A DNA stretch of 64,000 nucleotides. Source: Xestospongia bergquistia. Lineage: Eukaryota > Porifera > Demospongiae > Haplosclerida > Petrosiidae. The notes under the pieces are model-generated. The model did not search any database. It saw only the letters and a list, made by a program, of their open reading frames with translations, and was not told the origin of the DNA. Made by a program: the position numbers and the translations under genes. Shown piece by piece: positions 4,242-16,943 of this stretch. The DNA lies in contig OZ014422.1 of NCBI GenBank assembly GCA_963965975.1, positions 4,921,155 to 4,985,154 of the forward strand, read 5' to 3'. The stretch's first letter is position 1. Each line of letters opens with the position of its first letter.

Positions 4242-4978
4242 ATGCGTGATATGCTGCCAAGTAGTCATACTATGTCACTTGATAATGGTATTCCTATAAC
4301 TCTTACCAGCTACATCCCTCCTGGTATGGAAATACTTGTGTTTGGACAATACCATACTATGGTAACTGAAAATGATATTGCAATAGCTTGGAGAGTTTAT
4401 CCATCAGGCAATCCAACAACAATACAGTTCATGTATCCAAATGAAACACAAGTTGGTGCTTTTTATGTCCAAGATAACACTAAGATCACAATTGGACCAA
4501 TAGTAGCTGATCCTGGAACATTATGGAACTATGTCACTACATCACAAACAGACCCTGGAAAGCTGCAATGTGATAGTAAGTAACTTTACTGAACTTGACT
4601 ACTTTGGCTTAAAATTTTTCTTGTTTAGATTCTATTATTTCTAGATCAAATAGTTTGTATGCAGTGTTCAATAAGCCCCCTATATCTGGTGATCAATGGG
4701 AAGGACGGGCAGTTAATATTGGTCTTTATAAAGGGGGAGATTTGTTCATGGCACAAACTAATGTTGGAGTTGGAAACTATGTTGAGTTTGAGCTTCATCA
4801 AAAATTGTATTTTGGAGTGCTTGTGAATTGGGAAGACCTGACTTCCATTGATGAAATCCTAGAAGTGTCTCAAATCACAGAAATAGACCTTACTCAATTT
4901 CCTAATGGATTGGATATCACACTAACACAAGAGAGCAATACAAAAAAGTTTAAATTCAGTACCAAGTCTAAAATTTAA
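4242..4978 (+). CDS. Two-exon beta-rich family protein, member A (function unknown)
   Basis: Exons 4242-4575 and 4629-4978 join in phase 1 (GAT A|AT) to give 227 aa, or 217 aa from the Met at 4272, which aligns better with the other members. Exon 1 carries the family signature GIPITLTSY, PPGMEILVFGQ and AIAWRVYPSGNP. Exon 2 carries WEGRAVNIGLYK, GVGNYVEFELHQKLYFGVLV and 'E-x-D-L-x-x-F-P-N-G'. There is no signal peptide or membrane segment, and the strand/turn pattern suggests a soluble beta-sandwich. I do not recognise a named family. The layout (F-x-K/Q-N...AW-V...YP...G-A, then N-I-Y/G-L-Y-K...KLYFGV) recalls uncharacterised bacterial and fungal proteins, a memory that needs a search. Of the four members this is the only one on the plus strand. 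Confidence 0.7.
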
Positions 4979-5624
4979 ACTGGACATAAACTTATATCAT
5001 ACGTTTAGTTCTTTTCATCAGTGCTATTATAATTGCTTGTTATTTTTGTGTTGACATTGGTTAAACCTTATTAATTTTAAACAATAGCACTGTAACTGTA
5101 TTCTGCTATCCACTAATTATAATTTTATTTTATTTAACAAATTTATTATAGCTTTACAGTATCATTTATTAAAAGATTATCAAATAAGTTAGCCACAAAG
5201 TGGCAGAAGAAATACAATGAAATGATGGTTTGGTTTCAGGCATGAATATTTTTGCAATTATATAAGCTATACTAATCTCTATCTATGTACAAGGCACCAG
5301 AGTAAATGGAGAAGTGGAGTCAGACTAGACGACTGTGCAGATCTATCAGCATTCATTCAGAATGAAATTTCCTAACTGTCGCTATTTACTGTTCATTTGC
5401 AGACTTAGCTACTAAATTGTTATTTGTATATGTAAAATAAAAAGTAAAAATTGATAGTTTCATTATTTGAAAATTCTGTAAAGCCTTTAATAAAGGTGAA
5501 AATTTACATTAACATGAACTAAATCAAAAGATGAAGTGATTCAATCTAAACATCTAGCTAAATTGATAAACTTTATCTATATTGCAAATCAAATTAAAAG
5601 TCTTGTGAACTTGTACAGAGCTAA
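4979..5624. other. Convergent intergenic region
   Basis: The 3' ends of member A (+) and member B (-) face each other across this stretch. I see no further exon. 'AATAAA'-like polyadenylation text occurs on the plus side near 5437. Confidence 0.5.
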
Positions 5625-6309
5625 CTACATCTGTTGAGCACTGAAGGAATATCTGCCTCCAGCTGGCTCTTGTTTAAGGATGACGACAATACCATTGGGA
5701 AATTCACTAAGATCAAACTCAGTTAGAGCGGTAGTAATTTCCAGTGATGTAAAGACATCACCAACTTGCATATTGCGTACTACTCCAAAATAGAGCTTGG
5801 GCTGAAGCATGAAGTCAACCTGATCACCAACATGAACACTGGGTTGAGTCAGCAAGAGTAGATGATCTTTGTAAATGCCAACATCAAACATACGACCACT
5901 CCATGTTGCTGGAGGGACATTTTGAACAACAATTGTATTGTTGGGATTTGCAGGAACACCAGTTTCTGTAAGAAGAATAAGATTTGTGAAATGAAATCAT
6001 ATTAGAATACACTATACTTTCTTTCAAAGTAGCCGTTTCTGATGAAGTATCTTGAGTGATCAACCAAGATGATCCCAGTTTTGCTCCAAATGGTCCAGCT
6101 GTGATCAGCTGATCATCAAAATGATAAGAAGCTCCAATCTCGATTTCGACAGGATACACAAATTCTGAGCTAGTTTGAGCTTTGAGAACATGCCATGCTA
6201 CATAGTATGTTTTTGGTGTATCAGTACTATAATTCTTGGTAAAGACAACCACTTCAAAGTCAACATTTCCAGTGGAATTGATATATTTGATAGGAATTTT
6301 GCTAGCCAT
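5625..6309 (-). CDS. Two-exon beta-rich family protein, member B (divergent)
   Basis: Exons 6309-6018 and 5965-5625 join at the same phase-1 junction (GAA A|AA) used by the other members, giving 210 aa starting MASKIPIKYINSTGNVDFE. It keeps VVVFTKNY, YYVAWHVLK, FVYPVEIEIGAS in exon 1 and MFDVGIYKD, GDQVDFMLQPKLYFGVV, 'E-F-D-L-S-E-F-P-N-G' in exon 2. It lacks the roughly 24-residue insert found in C and D. Of the four it looks most like the bacterial and fungal proteins I recall, notably in the 'A-N-P-N-N' linker before the second half. The start at 6309 is chosen because the residues upstream are not shared with relatives. Function unknown. Confidence 0.7.
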
Positions 6310-6784
6310 TTCTTGGAAGTCACTAATTTTTACTTGTAGCACATGAGTACATCAGATGTACATATTTGTTTTATACCTGCAACAACTAATTGATTAGTCA
6401 ATGTTGACATTAATTTCCTTCCACAAAATTAGCCTTCATTTCCTATGTTTATGTATGTTTTGACCTTGGTTTATTAGTGTGTTCATGATATAGTAAACTG
6501 ATAATATGTTTACTCTTTCAATATTTACCTAAGGCTGATAAATAACAGGAAATTTCTCTTTTATCACACACAATAGCAGCTTAAGAGACAAAGATTGGAG
6601 CATTTATACTGAATTTTATAATTATACTCAGTGGATTACTTTATAACTCATTTACCTAGTATATAAGGTTTGAAAACAATATTATTTTGTAATAATTATA
6701 ATACATTGTTAATTAAATGACACTAACTTAATAACAAGGTAGTCTCTACAGAAGTAATTAAAATGCAATTGAAAGAAAATGCAG
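6310..6784. other. Intergenic; right part duplicated at 10.7 kb
   Basis: No exon seen. The segment from about 6590 to 6784 ('TTTATACTGAATTT', 'GTGGATTACTTT', 'ACCTAGTATATAAGGTT') recurs at about 10720-10896, downstream of member D. One edge of the C/D tandem duplication therefore lies near 6.6 kb. Confidence 0.6.
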
Positions 6785-9700
6785 TCAAGTAGATGCTTTA
6801 GCAGTAAATGTTAACTGCTGTGTGACTATATCTTGTTTGAGTGTCACAACAGCTCCATTAGGAAATTTATTAAGATCAACTTCAGTTAACTGGGAAATTT
6901 GTGCCTGAGGAGTTATAACATTTGCTGGTACAGGGAGTTTTAAAACAGCAACTCCAGCTGCTTTTGAAACAATGTTTGGAATGAACATCTTTCCTGGAAC
7001 AACAAAACTATTCGAATCATTTACTAAAACACCAAAATATAGTTTCTTATGCATTGTTAGCTCAGCGTAATTCCCAACTCCTACAGAAGGCTCAATCATA
7101 AACAGGTCTTTGTCCTTGTATAAGCCAATGTTAACGACTCGACCTTTCCAAGGACCACCAGATGGAGGTGGTTCATTTAATATTGCATACAAACCATCAG
7201 GCCTGGGCGCTTTCAATCCTATAATGACAGGAGTAAAGATTGAACTAAAAGTATATTATTTGTCAATACATAAAGAGTAATATATATATATATAAGATGA
7301 CCAAGAAAATAAAAAATAAAAATTCATTAAATGTTATAGGGATGGCAATAAAAGAGATCTCAAACAAGCACAAAAGTAGGAGTAGCGGTCTATGGACATC
7401 CCTACAAAGTAGTCAGAGGGACAGAAATACCTGAATGCAATTTTTATATTTGAAAGTTACATTATACTGCATTGTGAGTATATATTTCTTAAGGAAAATA
7501 CCCACAATATCATATGCATAATGGTTTGTTGCAACAGTTGTATGAGGCAAATAGTGCCTTCAATCCTATAATGACAGGAGTAAAGACTGAACCAAAAATA
7601 TATTATTTGTTAATACATAAAGAGTAATATAGAACAGAATTAAAGGACAAAAGAACAGAGCTCTCGCTGTGTTGCTGTTACTCCGAGTTTCACGCGTTAT
7701 GCAATCGTCAGACAGCTGTCTGACGATCGCATAATGTGTGAAACTCGGAGTAACAGCAACACAGCGAGAGCTCTGTTCTTTTGTCCTTTAATTCTGTTCT
7801 AACCCGCTCTGTCTAAACGACATCGAGCACTCTTCAACAGACTTAGATACTTCAGTATAAAGAGTAATATATATATAAGTCTAATAAATAAATAAAAATT
7901 TATAGAAAAATTCATTTAAATGTAGGGATTGCATCTCCAAATAAAGTAGAAATGGCAGTATGTGGACATCCCTATATAGTACCTACAATATCAAAGCCAT
8001 AATGATTTGTTGCAAAGAAGTTAAAGACTGTTTAGTTAGATAGAAAATGAGGATTTTCCATAAGAAAATATACTCATCATCATAATGCAGTAAAATGTAA
8101 CTTCCAAATATAAAAATTGTGTTCAGGTACTTCTGCGCATGTGACTACTATGTAGGGATGTCCATATACTGCCATTCCTATTTAGGGCTTGTTTGAGATG
8201 TTTTTACTATCATTCGTTCATTTAATGAAGTTTTTTTAGAAATTTTGTCTACTTGTTTATGATGTTTCTATTTGAATTATGAATTTATTAAAGTATGTTC
8301 ATAATGTCTTTTCTTTATTATTACAGGTTGAATGAGTGCACTCAGGATATACTATACAACAGGGCATTGCTATAACTTATAATGACTAGCAATATTATAT
8401 TATGCACGTATCACAAAGAATGATATATTTATATATATGTATAACCAAACTAGATATACCTAATTTAACTGGTAATGCATTGTTTATTGAATGTTAGAAG
8501 ACAAGACAAATCTGATCTTCTTAAGAAACAGGAACAAGGTTACTGACAAGAATGTAAGTATATACCTCTGAGAATGGGCCTTGTAATAGAATAGAATATA
8601 TTTACTGGTCCAATAACCTTCTATTAATGAGCTATATTTTTCCTAATGAAAATAATTATAACTCATAAAAATGGCATCTCTTACAGAGGCTAACCTACAC
8701 AAACCGCTACTTTCATTGTTAACAGTGCTAGAAATAAGACCTCTAAAAGTGGATATTTCACGTGAGAACCTACCTTTCTGTGTAAATAAATGTTAGTCTG
8801 GTGTTATCAATCCTTTGCTAAGAGAGGAAGGGTCTGGGAACAAGTGCTCTTGTAGCAAAAAAACAGATTTATGTAGAGCATACATAGACTTTAGTGTGAG
8901 TGAAAATGCAAAATGGCTGATGTGACATGCATGCATTGGATGTGGTGATCATCTTTCAAATAGAAGCACAGACCATCTTTTACTAACTAGCACTGCCTCA
9001 TGTCATGTATTGCTTTAAGAGCAGAGTTTTGACCTGCTTCAACAATTTTGATAGCCATCATCGACTCACACAAAATAGGTGTTAAGTGAAAAAGAGGACC
9101 TTGTAAGTACACAAGATATTTCTGTGTCCTTCAAGATGTTTACAGGCTATACAAGTCCTATATGCGGTTATCCCTAGACCCTTCCTCTCTTAGCAAAAGG
9201 TTGGCAATGCCAGACCACATTAATCTTTATAAGGCTAAGATAAAACATCATGCCATCCCTAGCTACATAGGTATGGGGCGCTGTTTTTGTCAAAATTGGA
9301 AGTTTTCATGATATAATAAATAAGTCATTATTTAATAAAATATATGGAAATAGATGGACATTTCAATTTCAATATAACGGGGTTATACGAAGTTTTAATA
9401 TCCGTCCTCGACTTCTCTAAATAATAGATCTACAATATACAACCAAAAAGTCAGGTACCTAACCTAACTGGAAACATCTCGCTGACGTAAGAGACAGCTT
9501 GTGGTGCTCATGGTCAGTGTTTTATTTAACTAAGTAATAATAAAAGTAAATCATAACATGTTAAATGTACCATTGAACCCATTTAATTTTGACACAAACA
9601 GCGCCCCATACATAGGCAATACTATCATTTACCTAATTACATTGTTCTATTGACTTACTATCAAGTTGTAGTTCTCCAGGGTCTGTTTGTGATGTAGTTA

Positions 9701-9980
9701 CAAACTTCCACGTTGTACCAGGATCAGCTATTATTGGTCCAATTGTAATTTTACTGTCATCTTGATCATAAAAAGCACCAACTCCTGTTTTATATGGGTA
9801 AGTGAACTGCACTTTCATTGGATTACCAGAGGGCCAAACTTTCCAAGCTATTGCAACATCACCCTCTGTCACAATATCATGATTTTGTCCAAACACAAGT
9901 ATCTGCATACCGGGAGCAACATAGCTGGTAAAAGTTATAGGGATACCATCAACACCAGCCATTTTCTCTTCTTTTGCCAT
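6785..9980 (-). CDS. Two-exon beta-rich family protein, member C
   Basis: Exon 1 is 9980-9659 (start MAKEEKMAGVDGIPIT, taken because member D starts identically) and exon 2 is 7218-6785. They join in phase 1 (GAT A|GA) to give 251 aa. The 2.4-kb intron is packed with transposable elements and a truncated family fragment, so pairing these two exons is an inference supported by the matching phase and by member D. Exon 2 contains PPPSGGPWKGRVVNIGLYK, GVGNYAELTMHKKLYFGV, an insert of about 24 residues (PGKMFIPNIVSKAAGVAVLK) absent from A and B, then 'E-V-D-L-N-K-F-P-N-G'. Nearly identical to member D in both exons and in intron text. No signal peptide. Function unknown. Confidence 0.68.
7318..8245. 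repeat. Long inverted-repeat (foldback) element, interrupted
   Basis: The outer segments 7318-7540 and about 8040-8245 are inverted copies of each other: 'GCAATAAAAG...CAAACAAGCACAAAAGTAGGAG' against its reverse complement, then the 'TTTTTATATTTGAAAGTTACATT' part. An uninterrupted 480-bp version lies in the member D intron (11425-11905). The centre here has been invaded by a truncated copy of the member C exon-2 boundary (about 7549-7630) and by the palindromic insertion at 7631-7856. Confidence 0.7.
7631..7856. mobile_element. Palindromic insertion with 14-bp flanking direct repeats
   Basis: Positions 7631-7800 form a 170-bp palindrome, two 85-base arms matching at 82 positions and centred on CAGCTG (7713-7718). 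A 56-bp unique tail follows (7801-7856). The whole insert is flanked by perfect direct repeats of ATAAAGAGTAATAT (7617-7630 and 7857-7870). Paralogous empty sites with a single copy of that phrase occur near 7270 and near 11385. The three arm mismatches are all transitions, as expected from recent mutation of a once perfect palindrome. No coding capacity. Confidence 0.85.
8789..9228. mobile_element. MITE-like element with inverted termini of about 45 bp, copy 2
   Basis: Left end (about 8789-8832) and right end (about 9174-9228) are inverted copies sharing 'CTTTTGCTAAGAGAGGAAGG' and 'GTCTGG' with a few mismatches. The interior has no open frame and is homologous in reverse to 1656-2095. A lone terminus of the same family sits at about 11908-11975 in the member D intron, followed by the same host flank ('ATTAATCTTTATAAG', 'CATGCCATCCCTAGCTAC'). 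Confidence 0.75.
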
Positions 9981-10139
9981 ACTTGTCTTGATAATCAAAT
10001 TTCTCTTGCTTGACTTAGCTGTTATACAGTGACGGCAGGAACAGAGTAAGCTATATATCTCACGTCGTCCGACTGGAGTGAAGCTACACGTGATGGGCGT
10101 GTCTGAGAGCAAACATGGCAATAGAATTTTATTTTACAG

Positions 10140-10720
10140 AGTTTCCAGACGTTTCCCTCCCGCGGGCAACGCAAGACTATATTAATGAGAAGGCTAACTT
10201 ATTGCTTGCAATTACGTAAATAAATTTATAATTCCAATAATCAAGTAACTGATAAAGAGAATTGTCAAGCAATTTTGCTTAATTATTAAACTGAAATTAA
10301 TTAATAACTGAGATTAAATTGTCTTGTAGTAATTTTTTGCTTCGTAAAGTTAAAAATAATTGGACAAATTAGAACAAAATAGACAAATAGATTAAAGCAC
10401 TCAATAGATTTTTGATATATATACTTTATCCACAATACTACAAACAATTATTAAGTTCAAAGATCAAGGTGTGATATGGAAGGTAATTCAACTGCTGTCA
10501 TACAAAAAGGATCATTTTGTAATTGACCACTTTTCCAGAGCTAAAGGTAACAATAGCAATTAAAAACATTTTATATATTTTAATCGAAATACCTGATACA
10601 AATGACAACATTTAAAGTCATATTAAGCATGAACAATAAGACATCATTCTATTCATAATTAGATAGTGTTCTCTTTAGCATTTACCATGTTCTGTGAAGC
10701 TTGCTTGAGATGCAAATAAT
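10140..10720 (-). pseudogene. Displaced fragment of the DH-PH-MORN gene (last exon plus a DH-domain exon edge)
   Basis: Positions 10140-10590 match 19070-19790, including the terminal exon of the DH-PH-MORN gene; the remainder, about 10595-10720, matches 22838-22980, an internal intron and exon edge of the same gene. The roughly 3 kb between those source segments is missing. The junction reads ACCTGATACAAATG, fusing a donor-side ACCTG (as at 19788) to the 'ATACAAATG' found at 22835. Introns are retained, so this is a DNA-level duplication with an internal deletion, not a retrocopy. About 230 bp present at 19140-19375 is also absent here. Confidence 0.75.
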
Positions 10721-10896
10721 CTGGATGTTTATACTGAATTTAATAATTATACTTAGTGGATTACTTTGTAATTCATTTTACCTAGTATATAAGGTTCGGA
10801 AACAATGTTAATTTTAATTTTGTAATATAAAAATTAAATGACATTAACTTAATAACAAAAGAAGCCCCTATAGAATTAATTAAAAGTAAAATGCAG

Positions 10897-12410
10897 TCAA
10901 ATAGATGCTTTGGCAGAAAATGTGAATTGTTTTGTGACTATATCTTGTTCGAGTGTCACAACAGCTCCATTAGGAAATTTGTTAAGATCAACTTCAGTTA
11001 ACTGGGAAATTTGTGCCTGAGGAGTTATAACATTTGCTGGTACAGGTAGACTTAAAACATCAACTCCAGCTGCTTTTGAAATAATGTTTGGAATGAACAT
11101 CTTTCCTGGAACAACAAAACTATTCGAATCATTTACTAAAACACCAAAATATAGTTTCTTATGCATTGTTAGTTCAGCGTAATTCCCAACTCCTACAGAA
11201 GGCTCAATCATAAACAGGTTTTTGTCCTTGTATAAGCCAATGTTAACGACTCGACCTTTCCAAGGACTACCAGATGGAGGTGGTTCATTTAATATTGCAT
11301 ACAAACCATCAGGCCTGGGCGCTTTCAATCCTATAACGACAGGAGTAAAGATTGAACTAAAAATATATTATTTGTCAATACATAAAGAGTAATATATATA
11401 TATATAAGATGACCAAGAAAATAAAAAATAAAAATTCATTAAATGTTATAGGGATGGCAATAAAAGAGATCTCAAACAAGCACAAAAGTAGGAGTAGCAG
11501 TCTATATATGGACATCCCAACAAAGTAGTCACATGGACAGAAATACCTGAATGCCAATTTTTATATTTGAAAGTTACATTATACTGCATTGTGAGTATAT
11601 ATTTCTTAAATAAAATACCCACAATATCATATGCATAATGGTTTGTTGCAACAGTTGTATGAGGCAAATAGTCCCATAAGAAGTTTAAAGTAAATGACTG
11701 TTCAGTTAGATAAAAAGTGAGTGTTTTCTTTAAGAAAATATACTCACAAAGCAGTAAAATGTAACTTTCAAATATAAAAATTGTGTTCAGGTACTTCTGC
11801 ACATGTGACTACCGTATAGGGATGTCCATATACTGCCATTCCTACTTTGGGCTTGTTTGAGCTGTTTTTTATTACCACCCCTACATTTAATGAATTTTTT
11901 TTGAAATTGTCCCCAGACCCTTTTTCTCTATCTTAGCAAAGGGTTGGCAATGCCAGACTACATTAATCTTTATAAGACTTCTACTTTTATAGTTATCATC
12001 GTGAAAAAAGAAGATAAAATATCATGCCATCCCTAGCTACCATAGACACTACTATTGTCTGCTTGATTACATTGTTCTATTGACTTACTATCAAGTTGTA
12101 GTTCTCCAGAGTCTGTTTGTGATGTAGTTACAAACTTCCATGTTGTACCAGGATCAGCTACTATTGGTCCAATTGTAATCTTACTGTCATCTTGATCATA
12201 AAAAGCACCAACTCCTGTTTTGTATGGGTAAGTGAACTGCGTTGTCGTTGATTTACCAGAATGGCAAACTTGCCAAGCTATTGCAACATCACCCTCTGTC
12301 ACAATATCATGATTTTGTCCAAACACAAGTATCCTCATACCGGGAGCAACATGGCTGGTCAAAGTTATAGGGATACCATCAACACCAGCCATTTTCTCTT
12401 CTTTCGCCAT
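10897..12410 (-). CDS. Two-exon beta-rich family protein, member D
   Basis: Exons 12410-12089 and 11330-10897 join in phase 1 to give 251 aa. Near-identical to member C: same start (MAKEEKMAGVDGIPITL), same insert in exon 2, and only scattered substitutions (for example HSGKSTTTQF against PSGNPMKVQF in exon 1). Its intron is 0.76 kb and holds one intact foldback element. Both C and D are open throughout, so the duplication is young or both copies are under selection. Upstream of the start is a TCACGTGA octamer at about 12594. No signal peptide or catalytic motif recognised. Function unknown; a secretory or enzymatic role cannot be argued from what is visible. Confidence 0.72.
11425..11905. 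repeat. Foldback element with inverted repeats of about 200 bp
   Basis: Left arm starts 'AAAAATTCATTAAATGTTAT' and the right arm ends with its inverse ('TACATTTAATGAATTTTTTT'). Between them the arms pair through 'GGACATCCC' and 'TTTTATATTTGAAAGTTACATT'. The element lies in the member D intron; the interrupted homologue is at 7318-8245. Open frames inside it are by-products of the repeat. Confidence 0.75.
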
Positions 12411-13022
12411 ATTTTGTCTTGATAGTCAAATTTCTCTTGTTTGACCCACAGTGACAGCAGCAACAGTGTAATTGCTGATGATAGTTGGGGGAAGGAAACG
12501 TCTGGGAGCTACACGTAATGAGTCGGTGTGCCTGAGAGCAAACGAACGACAATTAATTAATTAATTTCATAAGATTCATTTGATTACTTGTCGATCACGT
12601 GAACATTACAATCATCATCTACAGTGTATTGCTCTATCTTGTAATAATGGAGTGATGAAATTCAAGGTAAGATAGTCTGTTAATGAAGCTATTGTTGTAT
12701 TATATATGGATTGTGTTAGACTTATGATGTTTTTTGTCTTATCTTCTTATATGTTATACCAGTATTACAATACCATTCAGAAATGGGAGGGTGTTTGGTG
12801 TTATTGTGTTAATACCGGTCCTATTGAATGTAAGTGAAATTATTGTAATTGTATGTTGAATCAAAGATTATTGAAAGACAAAACTTGTTTAATTTATACA
12901 TTCTTTGGCTTGATAAACATATCAGTGATACCACTCATGACATAAGTCATATTGTATCATATTCATTGTTGTAGAAACGTTGTTATATAATTTATAGGTC
13001 CATTCACATTTCTTTTCATTTA
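12411..13022. other. Intergenic, no gene seen
   Basis: Upstream region of member D followed by AT-rich sequence. It contains a TCACGTGA octamer (about 12594) and an AATTAATTAATTAATT run (about 12550). No exon supported on either strand. Confidence 0.5.
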
Positions 13023-14120: not shown

Positions 14121-15933
14121 ATGGCTGAGGGAGACGATCTAATTGATGAAGCTTTTCTTTATGTATCAGAGAAGAAATATCCAGATGGAGCCAGTGCAAC
14201 TAGGAAGAGAATAATTAGAAAAAAGGCAGAAAAGTTTGTCATAGTTGATGTACTACAAACCTGGAAGAGAGAAGCAGGTAAAATGAAAAAAGTTTGTAAA
14301 ATAAAGTTTCAATGGTTGTTGGAACTATTGTAGATAGTTAAATACATACAGTCTCGAAGTGAGCAATTAAAGATTGTGAAATCATGTCACATGGGTCCAA
14401 CATCGGGACATATGAGGTTTAAGAAAACAGTAGGACAAATTAGGGAATGATTTATGTGGAAAGGTATATGGAATGATGTCAAAGAAGTGGTAAGTTTGTT
14501 TAAAATTTGGTGTTGTCTTTATCAACACATGTAGGTTGCTACCTGTGATGAATGTCAGAGGATGAACAAAAATCCAATTGTTACTAACAATGAGCTTCAT
14601 CCTATACCAGTACATTCTCCATGGTACCATGTGGCAATTGACTTTGTTGGCCCAATGTCTCCAACATCTAGAAATGGGAATCGTTTTATTCTCACTGTGT
14701 CAGATTATTTTACAAAATGGGTGGAGGCCCTTCCCTTGCCTAGCAAATGTGCCCATGGTGTCGCTGAAACTTTATTCAAGGTAATGATCATTATTAAGTA
14801 AAATTATAGAACAATATCCATACAATTCACATTTGCCACAGATTTTTATGAGAATGGGTCTTCCTAAATTGTTGACAAGTGACCAAGGCAGAGAGTTTCA
14901 TGAATCCTCTCTGCATACGCCATTTGAACTTATGTTTGGTAGAAGAGCTGTCATACCAATTGATGTTGAAACAGAAAAAAAAGAAGGGAATGAACTCCTA
15001 CATGAATATCTAACAAACACATCTGTAAGTTAGTGTTTTCCTCACTGATTTTTACTAAAAAGGAAGAAAGACTATAAAAGTGTATAATGTGTATAATTAA
15101 TTACTGTTATATCAGTCTTTTATTAATTATCATTATTTTATACAGGAGGATGTTATAGTCACTGTTGATACTCTAACTACTCAAAGAAAAGCCTTGCTTG
15201 AGAATGCAAGAAAAAATATAGAAGTAGCACAGCAGAGACAAAAAGAGCAATATGATCGAAAACATTCAATTCCACCAAAGTTTAGAGTTGGAGTCAAAGT
15301 TCTGAAAAAAGATTTCTTACGCAAAAAGAGGAAGGGAGGGTGTATGGATCACAAGTGGCTAGGACCATATGAAGTTATAAAAGATGTCGGCAAAGGTTTT
15401 TTTCACTCAAAAGTGTAGAGAGTGGTAAAACTATTAAACGAATCCATGGTGCCCACTTGAAAGTCTATCATACACCTCCAAATTCACCAAATTCTAGCAA
15501 TCTCCTATCACCTTTCAATCCTAATGATCACTCAGATATACCTCCATCACCATTTCACTTAGACAATAATTCCCATATCTCATCATTAAATCATTCAAGT
15601 GTTCCAACGTCATTTGACCATGACAATTCTTCTAAATCTCTGTCATCATTAGGCCTAAATAATCATTTGGATGTTCAAGACTCTCTTTTATCTTCAGAGT
15701 TTTGTCAAAATAATACTTTCACAGTAAATTGCAACTTTCAATCATTCACACCTATTTACTTTCCTGTCACTGTATCACCACCACCTGTCTTTTCCCCTAT
15801 ATTACCACCCTCTTTACCATCTCCACCTCAAAAATCTTCACCCATCACTTTGTCATTGCATCCTTCAGTAACACCTCAACCTCTTATTTCTGTGCCTGTA
15901 GCTTCTTCATTCCAACCCTCTTCATTATCATAA
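14121..15933 (+). pseudogene. Ginger-like integrase, inactivated
   Basis: Exons 14121-14277, 14338-14489, 14535-14780, 14842-15024 and 15146 onward join in phase. The HHCC zinc finger is visible (CH..., GH..., CDECQ at 14535-14555), the first catalytic Asp in AIDFVGP, and the second in TSDQGREF. The text then jumps straight from REFHESS to LHTPFELMFGRRA, so roughly 100 residues that should contain the catalytic Glu are missing. There is also an in-frame TGA in the zinc finger (QIRE-stop-FMWKG, about 14450) and a one-base slip in the T-run at 15396-15403 inside the GPY/F module (KWLGPYEVI...). After that the frame reads KTIKRIHGAHLKVYHTPP and a Ser/Pro-rich tail to 15933. Confidence 0.8.
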
Positions 15934-16052
15934 CCTGTGACTATTCTACCTATCACGGGGCAACCATCTCTTAGTTCTGTAACTATTACTTCATCATCTT
16001 AACCTTCACAAAACATTCATGCCAAACGTCTTGCTATAAAAATGCGACTGAT

Positions 16053-16943
16053 TTGCTAAGGCTAGCAAATCTGAAAGAGGTAGCAAATAACAGTGAACAG
16101 ATTGATAGGGTTAATGTTGATGATCTACAAGACACAATGAAAGTAGAGTGTATGTGGGTGCAGAAGCTATCAAAGGCTGATGAACATATTCTATTATCTG
16201 GGGAGTGGTTGAATGATACCATTGTAAATGCATCACAAAGACTGATCACAACATCTTTTCCTCTCTGCAATGGGTTACAAGATACCAATCTTGGACAAAC
16301 TCTAGCATTTGATATTCAAAGGTCTCCATTTGTTCAAGTGTTACATACAGGATATGATCATTGGGTGACTATCTCCACATATGGATGTGACCTTGGATTT
16401 GTTGATATTTATGACAGCTTACCACCTGCAATGAGTTCATCACTTCAAAGACAAATTGCAGCAATTGTTTGTTTGCCACCCACTCATAGAGAAATCAACA
16501 TCAGGTATGTCAGTCTTATCTGTTTTTAAGTTTCATTTTATCTTTAAAGGTATAGGTATTGCCAGTCACAAGTTGGCTCATCAGATTGTGGTCTCTTTGC
16601 TCTGACTTTTGCCTCAGTGATTGCTATAGGAGATGATCCAGGTAGATATACATTTGAGCAACGAAAGATGAGAGACCACTTACACAGCTGCTTAAATAAA
16701 GGAACTTTTTCAACGTTTCCTACAAGACGTGTTGGTCGAAAAGTCCATAAAATCACCAATATTGTAAAGATACCAGTATATTGCAAATGTCGGATGCCAG
16801 AGATCAAAGATTTAAAGATGATTCAATGCAGCACTTGTTCTGAATGGTACCATATTGATGTTTGTGTGCAAGTCTCAGAAGAGATCATTAAAAAGAGATC
16901 TTCCATTTGGTTATGTGACAACTGTGATAAAATTTCTGTATAG
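16053..16943 (+). CDS. Ulp1-like cysteine protease with C-terminal PHD finger (transposon-encoded)
   Basis: Exons up to 16504 and 16556-16943, separated by a 51-bp intron; the junction ATC AG|G TAT restores the motif CQSQVGSSDCGLFAL. The catalytic set of the C48 (Ulp1/SENP) fold is present: His in GYDHWVTI, Asp in VDIYDS, Gln in SQVG and Cys in SSDCGLF. Upstream DEHILLSGEWLNDTI matches the 'L....WLND..I' region typical of Ulp1 proteases. The PHD finger follows: YCKCRMPE, MIQCSTC, EWYHIDVC, WLCDNC. The frame is open from about 16053 to the stop at 16943 while the integrase next door is dead. The start codon is not certain; the frame may continue from the linker upstream. Ulp1 domains remove SUMO-like modifiers; the substrate here is unknown. 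Confidence 0.75.

Follow-up and report, generated by a model that had tools for sequence, protein, structure and literature searches.

Transfer of bacterial genes into sponges has been described in Amphimedon. That study (Conaco 2016, PMC4784904) reports transferred genes with bacterial relatives, canonical introns and tandem clusters, and 29% of its transfer candidates are of unknown function. The kind of event that we propose is thus not unprecedented; the novelty lies in the family itself, which shares those three features. We examined this family in a 64,000-nucleotide stretch of the sponge Xestospongia bergquistia (the window; positions 4,921,155 to 4,985,154 of the 7.0-Mb contig OZ014422.1, assembly GCA_963965975.1) and across the 146,460,797 bases of the genome. 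Among described proteins, the aegerolysins and PUD-1/PUD-2 are likewise small, all-beta and patchily distributed (PMC3683130); the PUD chains are shorter, at 143 to 144 residues.

The explanation that we favor, with slightly better than even confidence, is a single old entry from bacteria followed by gain of an intron and radiation of a family that has no name and is expanded in this lineage. The gene that entered an animal ancestor, once and from bacteria, would have been intronless and about 205 codons long; one phase-1 intron would have been gained mid-frame, prior to the split of the subfamilies; and tandem and dispersed duplication would have given rise to the genes seen today, at least 28 of which could be modelled. 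If right, this is a clear-cut example of an animal multigene repertoire that arose from a bacterial gene of unknown function, and the shared intron puts entry, intron gain and radiation in order. The family has no name in the copies of Pfam, NCBIfam and PADLOC searched, and its simple bacterial members offer a route to testing what the animal genes do.

Four window genes share one intron

The window carries four family members, A to D, whose splice models, like all those reported here, are predicted from sequence:

Gene A, 4242-4575 and 4629-4978, forward strand: two exons, 53-bp phase-1 intron, 227 amino acids (aa)
Gene B, 6309-6018 and 5965-5625, reverse strand: two exons, 52-bp phase-1 intron, 210 aa
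Gene C, 9980-9659 and 7218-6785, reverse strand: two exons, 2440-bp phase-1 intron with repeat insertions, 251 aa
Gene D, 12410-12089 and 11330-10897, reverse strand: two exons, 758-bp phase-1 intron, 251 aa

All four are complete, open frames, each interrupted by a single GT-AG intron whose place in the alignment is identical in all. The spliced models therefore agree with the original prediction of four two-exon genes with one common phase-1 intron site, and the sequence blocks that it listed (VFGQ/VFTKN, AW.V, NIGLYK/DVGIYKD, KLYFGV and DL..FPNG) are all present. Alternative introns are possible in gene A, where the phase-1 choice agrees with the family position. Automatic splicing placed phase 1 on top in 25 of the 28 models obtained genome-wide; in the three exceptions, C, D and c11_4622, phase 2 scored best, but each also has a phase-1 intron at the family position. 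At the DNA level, 6603-7555 around C matches 10728-11672 around D at 93% identity (960 aligned columns), and 9611-10014 matches 12041-12445 at 92% (405 aligned columns); by this comparison, D is a young duplicate of C.

With B as the query, 67 exon-level matches were found in the genome at E ≤ 1. Together with the four open frames and the 92 to 93% DNA identity between C and D, these matches make the array more than a chance arrangement. Splice models were obtained for 28 of the 29 genes tried, spread over four contigs, and comprise 14 B-like genes and 14 of other types; at least two more copies, which contain stops, were excluded, and among the models c11_4619 is questionable and c11_4648B lacks a start codon. 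One cluster, on a contig (C11) other than that of the window, holds 16 of the 28 genes, and 10 of the 14 B-like genes lie at 4.60 to 4.66 Mb of C11. The other types are A, C and D themselves, six genes at 4.59 to 4.62 Mb and four at 5.50 to 5.71 Mb of C11, and one on C10. Thus, of the four-member array predicted earlier, the four genes stand, but the array is not the whole family, which includes very divergent subfamilies. Their divergence suggests that amplification began long ago and has also come in recent bursts.

The intron is shared far beyond the window. A phase-1 donor falls at alignment columns 125 to 129 in 24 of the 28 models, the most distant subfamilies included, in a count for which the models of c11_4591 and c11_4622 retain a few residues of probable intron (as they do in both trees described below). 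For c11_4625B, c11_4648B and c11_4658B, the column test suffered from a paralogue mismatch, and the splice models give each a phase-1 intron; c11_4619 is the sole model that does not fit the common position. Because the very divergent c10_6387, c11_5497 and c11_5707 to c11_5710 carry it, the intron appears to be older than the radiation. The ratio of nonsynonymous to synonymous substitution rates (dN/dS) had a median of 0.26 and a maximum of 0.88, with none above 1, over 103 paralogue pairs with dS of 0.05 to 1.2 drawn from the 28 coding sequences, figures that may include effects of gene conversion. By this measure the genes are mostly under constraint, purifying on average, and some young pairs less so.

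Relatives in scattered bacteria

Relatives were sought in prokaryote genomes, plasmids, viral contigs and phage records, besides this one animal genome. The original prediction had pointed to uncharacterized bacterial and fungal proteins whose blocks run in the same order, had named B as the member most like them and had proposed a profile search from B. Searches with B yielded a significant bacterial match. In a tblastn search of 72,556 plasmid records, B matched Photobacterium sp. GJ3 (2e-8, 85% of the query), as well as Calothrix (E = 0.8), Burkholderia stagnalis (E = 0.2) and Roseivivax (E = 7), each non-significant alone. When the Photobacterium protein was used as the query, Calothrix was matched at 1e-9 and B. 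stagnalis at 8e-74; A, c11_5707 and c10_6387 as their own queries gave no significant plasmid match. A scan of one genome per species in 84,980 prokaryote species returned 37 candidates, and 23 loci were upheld by tblastn; the scan used a single pattern, from an alignment with B as one of four rows, and its count is a minimum where close relatives are concerned. These loci belong to Photobacterium, Burkholderia and relatives, Comamonadaceae, Massilia, Caulobacter, Sphingomonas, Roseivirga, a Desulfobacteraceae metagenome-assembled genome (MAG) and Calothrix (on a plasmid), and at least 16 of the 23 have two or three copies, partial ones counted.

The bacterial proteins, of about 205 aa, are encoded without introns and have the same block order as the animal proteins, with homology over most of their length at about 20 to 30% identity. 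Fifteen core positions are conserved in at least 70% of both the 28 animal and the 43 bacterial rows (I5, N11, F23, A38, W39, F50, V58, A76, G79, L95, N113, G166, T179, L183 and F205 in B numbering). An MTGGG-like stretch near the end is found in most bacterial members, except Calothrix, and is absent in the animal proteins. We further scored the animal proteins with a bacteria-only profile, built from 33 of the 43 full-length bacterial rows, alongside 588 reversed or shuffled controls (415 reported). B scored 56.3 bits, A 30.4, D 21.1 and C 16.5, compared to 4.0 for the top control, so that B is indeed the window gene nearest to bacteria. All 14 B-type proteins led the ranking (43.9 to 64.0 bits), the 28 animal proteins together spanned 64.0 to 1.7 bits, and c11_4622 (16.8 bits) stood between D and C.

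To gauge how common the family is in bacteria, six even group samples, each including its known seed genome, were searched at E ≤ 0.001, and gave 1/292, 1/296, 5/399, 1/369, 1/247 and 4/240 matches. Two genomes of the Burkholderia order (loci L086 and L087) hold short tandem arrays of distant cousins, encoding two proteins of 208 to 230 aa; a third protein of 170 aa adjoins the cousins. In a separate observation, a protein on a Microvirga lotononidis plasmid (locus L094, 2902-3678) fuses a family-like N-terminal stretch to RTX calcium-binding repeats, and matches a cousin at 52% identity over 42 residues (E = 6e-5). RTX repeats are typical of type I secretion.

Phylogeny and weighing of origins

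In a tree of the 28 animal and 43 bacterial rows, animal and bacterial sequences split at 100/100. In a second tree, to which two cousins (both from L087) were added as outgroup and from which four very divergent Photobacterium second copies were omitted, the animal genes again formed a single clade (100/93), placed between the cousins and the main bacterial clade. A single acquisition, one intron gain and subsequent amplification, as envisaged in the original prediction, are compatible with these results, since the animal genes form one clade with a common intron. The genes lie on a host chromosome and carry a predicted spliceosomal intron, as a domesticated bacterial gene would. The idea that the window came from a symbiont or contaminant and ended up in the host assembly, to which the existence of bacterial relatives might lend color, has a practically zero probability: it is refuted by the introns, by a GC content of 0.31 to 0.34 that matches the rest of the window, by a genome-wide repeat within an intron and by the 28 modelled genes over four contigs. 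Seven exon-level Wnt matches on three contigs mark the genome as animal DNA.

Several observations weigh against a single entry from bacteria. The main bacterial clade of the outgroup tree is weakly supported (86/32), and the tree program warns of long branches meeting, so that the direction (bacteria to animal) is an inference, as are the number of transfers and their age. The 11 animal proteins outside both the B type and the window reach only 16.8 to 1.7 bits with the bacterial profile, c11_5707 falls under the best control (4.0 bits), and by sequence these proteins are tied to bacteria mainly via their animal relatives. The dN/dS of 0.65 for the C/D pair hints at relaxed constraint, signal peptides were assessed by eye alone, and no neighbor common to all bacterial groups was seen among the loci viewed. 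The family is also rare in bacteria. With the seed genomes removed, matches fell to 0/291, 0/295, 0/368 and 0/246 in four groups; 4/398 were left in the order to which the Burkholderia seed belongs, of which two were no more than distant cousins, and 3/239, all weak partial matches, in the class that includes the Caulobacter seed.

Such rarity is also compatible with bacteria having acquired the gene from eukaryotes. An old eukaryotic family passed to scattered bacteria would account for the very patchy distribution in the bacteria sampled and for the best bacterial scores falling to one animal subgroup only, the B type. We nevertheless regard it as rather unlikely, given that the relatives span several bacterial phyla, that the L086 and L087 cousins lie far outside the main bacterial clade and that the animal genes are still one clade beside bacteria when two cousins serve as the outgroup. 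The strong contrast between animal groups in their closeness to bacteria, and the split in the tree, could alternatively reflect at least two acquisitions, one leading to the B type and one to A, C, D and the other types. This is highly improbable: the animal genes form one clade at 100/100 and 100/93, and they have intron position and phase in common, where a chance double gain at one site is unlikely. A single entry from bacteria, followed by intron gain and radiation, thus remains the reading that we prefer.

Protein features and possible function

The original prediction saw no function in these proteins. At E ≤ 10, Pfam gave no family for B, the exons of A and C, two bacterial members or two cousins, and the L087 cousin copies likewise had no Pfam match. 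NCBIfam returned nothing convincing for family members (one chance match, at 0.033, to a cousin), nor did PHROGs (one chance match at 0.053), and PADLOC, PDB sequences and phage records held no convincing match to family members. Viral contigs contained no relative of B, of the mixed alignment or of a cousin, and literature searches on sponges and gene transfer and on DUF2589 neighbors showed no account of the family. Structure prediction and fold search, which had been proposed together with the profile search, gave a confident all-beta fold for a bacterial member, with nearly all strands (predicted local distance difference test, 91.1; predicted template-modelling score, 0.83), and resemblances to solved structures that were non-significant, none of them convincing. 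The peak 19-residue hydropathy in the animal proteins was 1.37, which speaks against a membrane helix.

None of the 15 shared core positions is acidic, basic or a cysteine, which would make binding likelier than catalysis. We tentatively infer, at well below even confidence, a soluble all-beta binder of a ligand, surface or partner that lacks conserved catalytic residues, most plausibly in defense or microbe recognition. Such a role is suggested because the animal has amplified the family and because its bacterial relatives are accessory, often in tandem, and in some cases near lysozyme, phage-tail-like or peptidase-like genes. An improbable alternative is that the proteins are beta-sandwich proteins that bind membranes or form pores, with an aegerolysin-like action, and are kept for defense. 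Aegerolysins (whose Pfam profile we take to be PF06355) and PUD-1/PUD-2 show no sequence match to the family members scanned, and their fold resemblance to the family is weak and non-significant. It is also distinctly unlikely, yet conceivable, that an undescribed family found in scattered bacteria and in a single early animal lineage was converted, after one transfer, into a diversified repertoire of at least 28 genes that recognize or kill microbes, built on a two-lobed beta fold absent among solved structures.

Bacterial gene neighborhoods

In the five Photobacterium loci, an uncharacterized protein sits between two family copies. Upstream in one of the Photobacterium loci (L028) lies a protein with peptidase-like traces under the Pfam cutoffs, in place of which L029 to L031 have another small protein. 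A phage-type lysozyme gene occurs in eight Burkholderiaceae loci (one scanned), and single scanned loci of that family also contain two DUF2589 proteins and a phasin-like protein. Four loci of Comamonadaceae and the Desulfobacteraceae MAG have a neighbor protein in common, which in the two scanned is a phage tail collar protein; the MAG also encodes a C39-like peptidase slightly under the cutoff. Taken together, these predicted neighborhoods suggest accessory, possibly antagonistic functions.

Repeats and other elements

The intron of C contains a 172-bp near-perfect palindrome (window 7630-7801; folding z-score, −27). At least 58 matches to its 86-bp arm, at 92 to 100% identity, are spread over 7 contigs (40 of the 286 candidates were scored), and some of them are facing pairs about 0.9 to 2.2 kb apart; in sequence, the arm resembles a terminal inverted repeat carried by a DNA transposon that was active recently and by its short derivative. 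Related inverted repeats with 77 to 86% identity lie in the introns of C and D (window 7314-8244 and 11426-11902) and are probably older insertions resembling miniature inverted-repeat transposable elements. Beyond the four genes, open frames at 14535-15418 and 15975-16529 of the window resemble, by eye, remnants of a retroelement integrase and an Ulp1-type protease; the segments 14535-15030 and 15975-16526 gave no Pfam match at E ≤ 0.01.

Elsewhere in the genome, the loci picked up in a search for silicatein-like peptidases have cysteine as the active-site residue wherever the motif was seen. Papain-family peptidase matches form a multi-exon tandem cluster at G000:C9:1502757-1523261 and occur in long intronless open frames at C10:520393 and C6:1148570.
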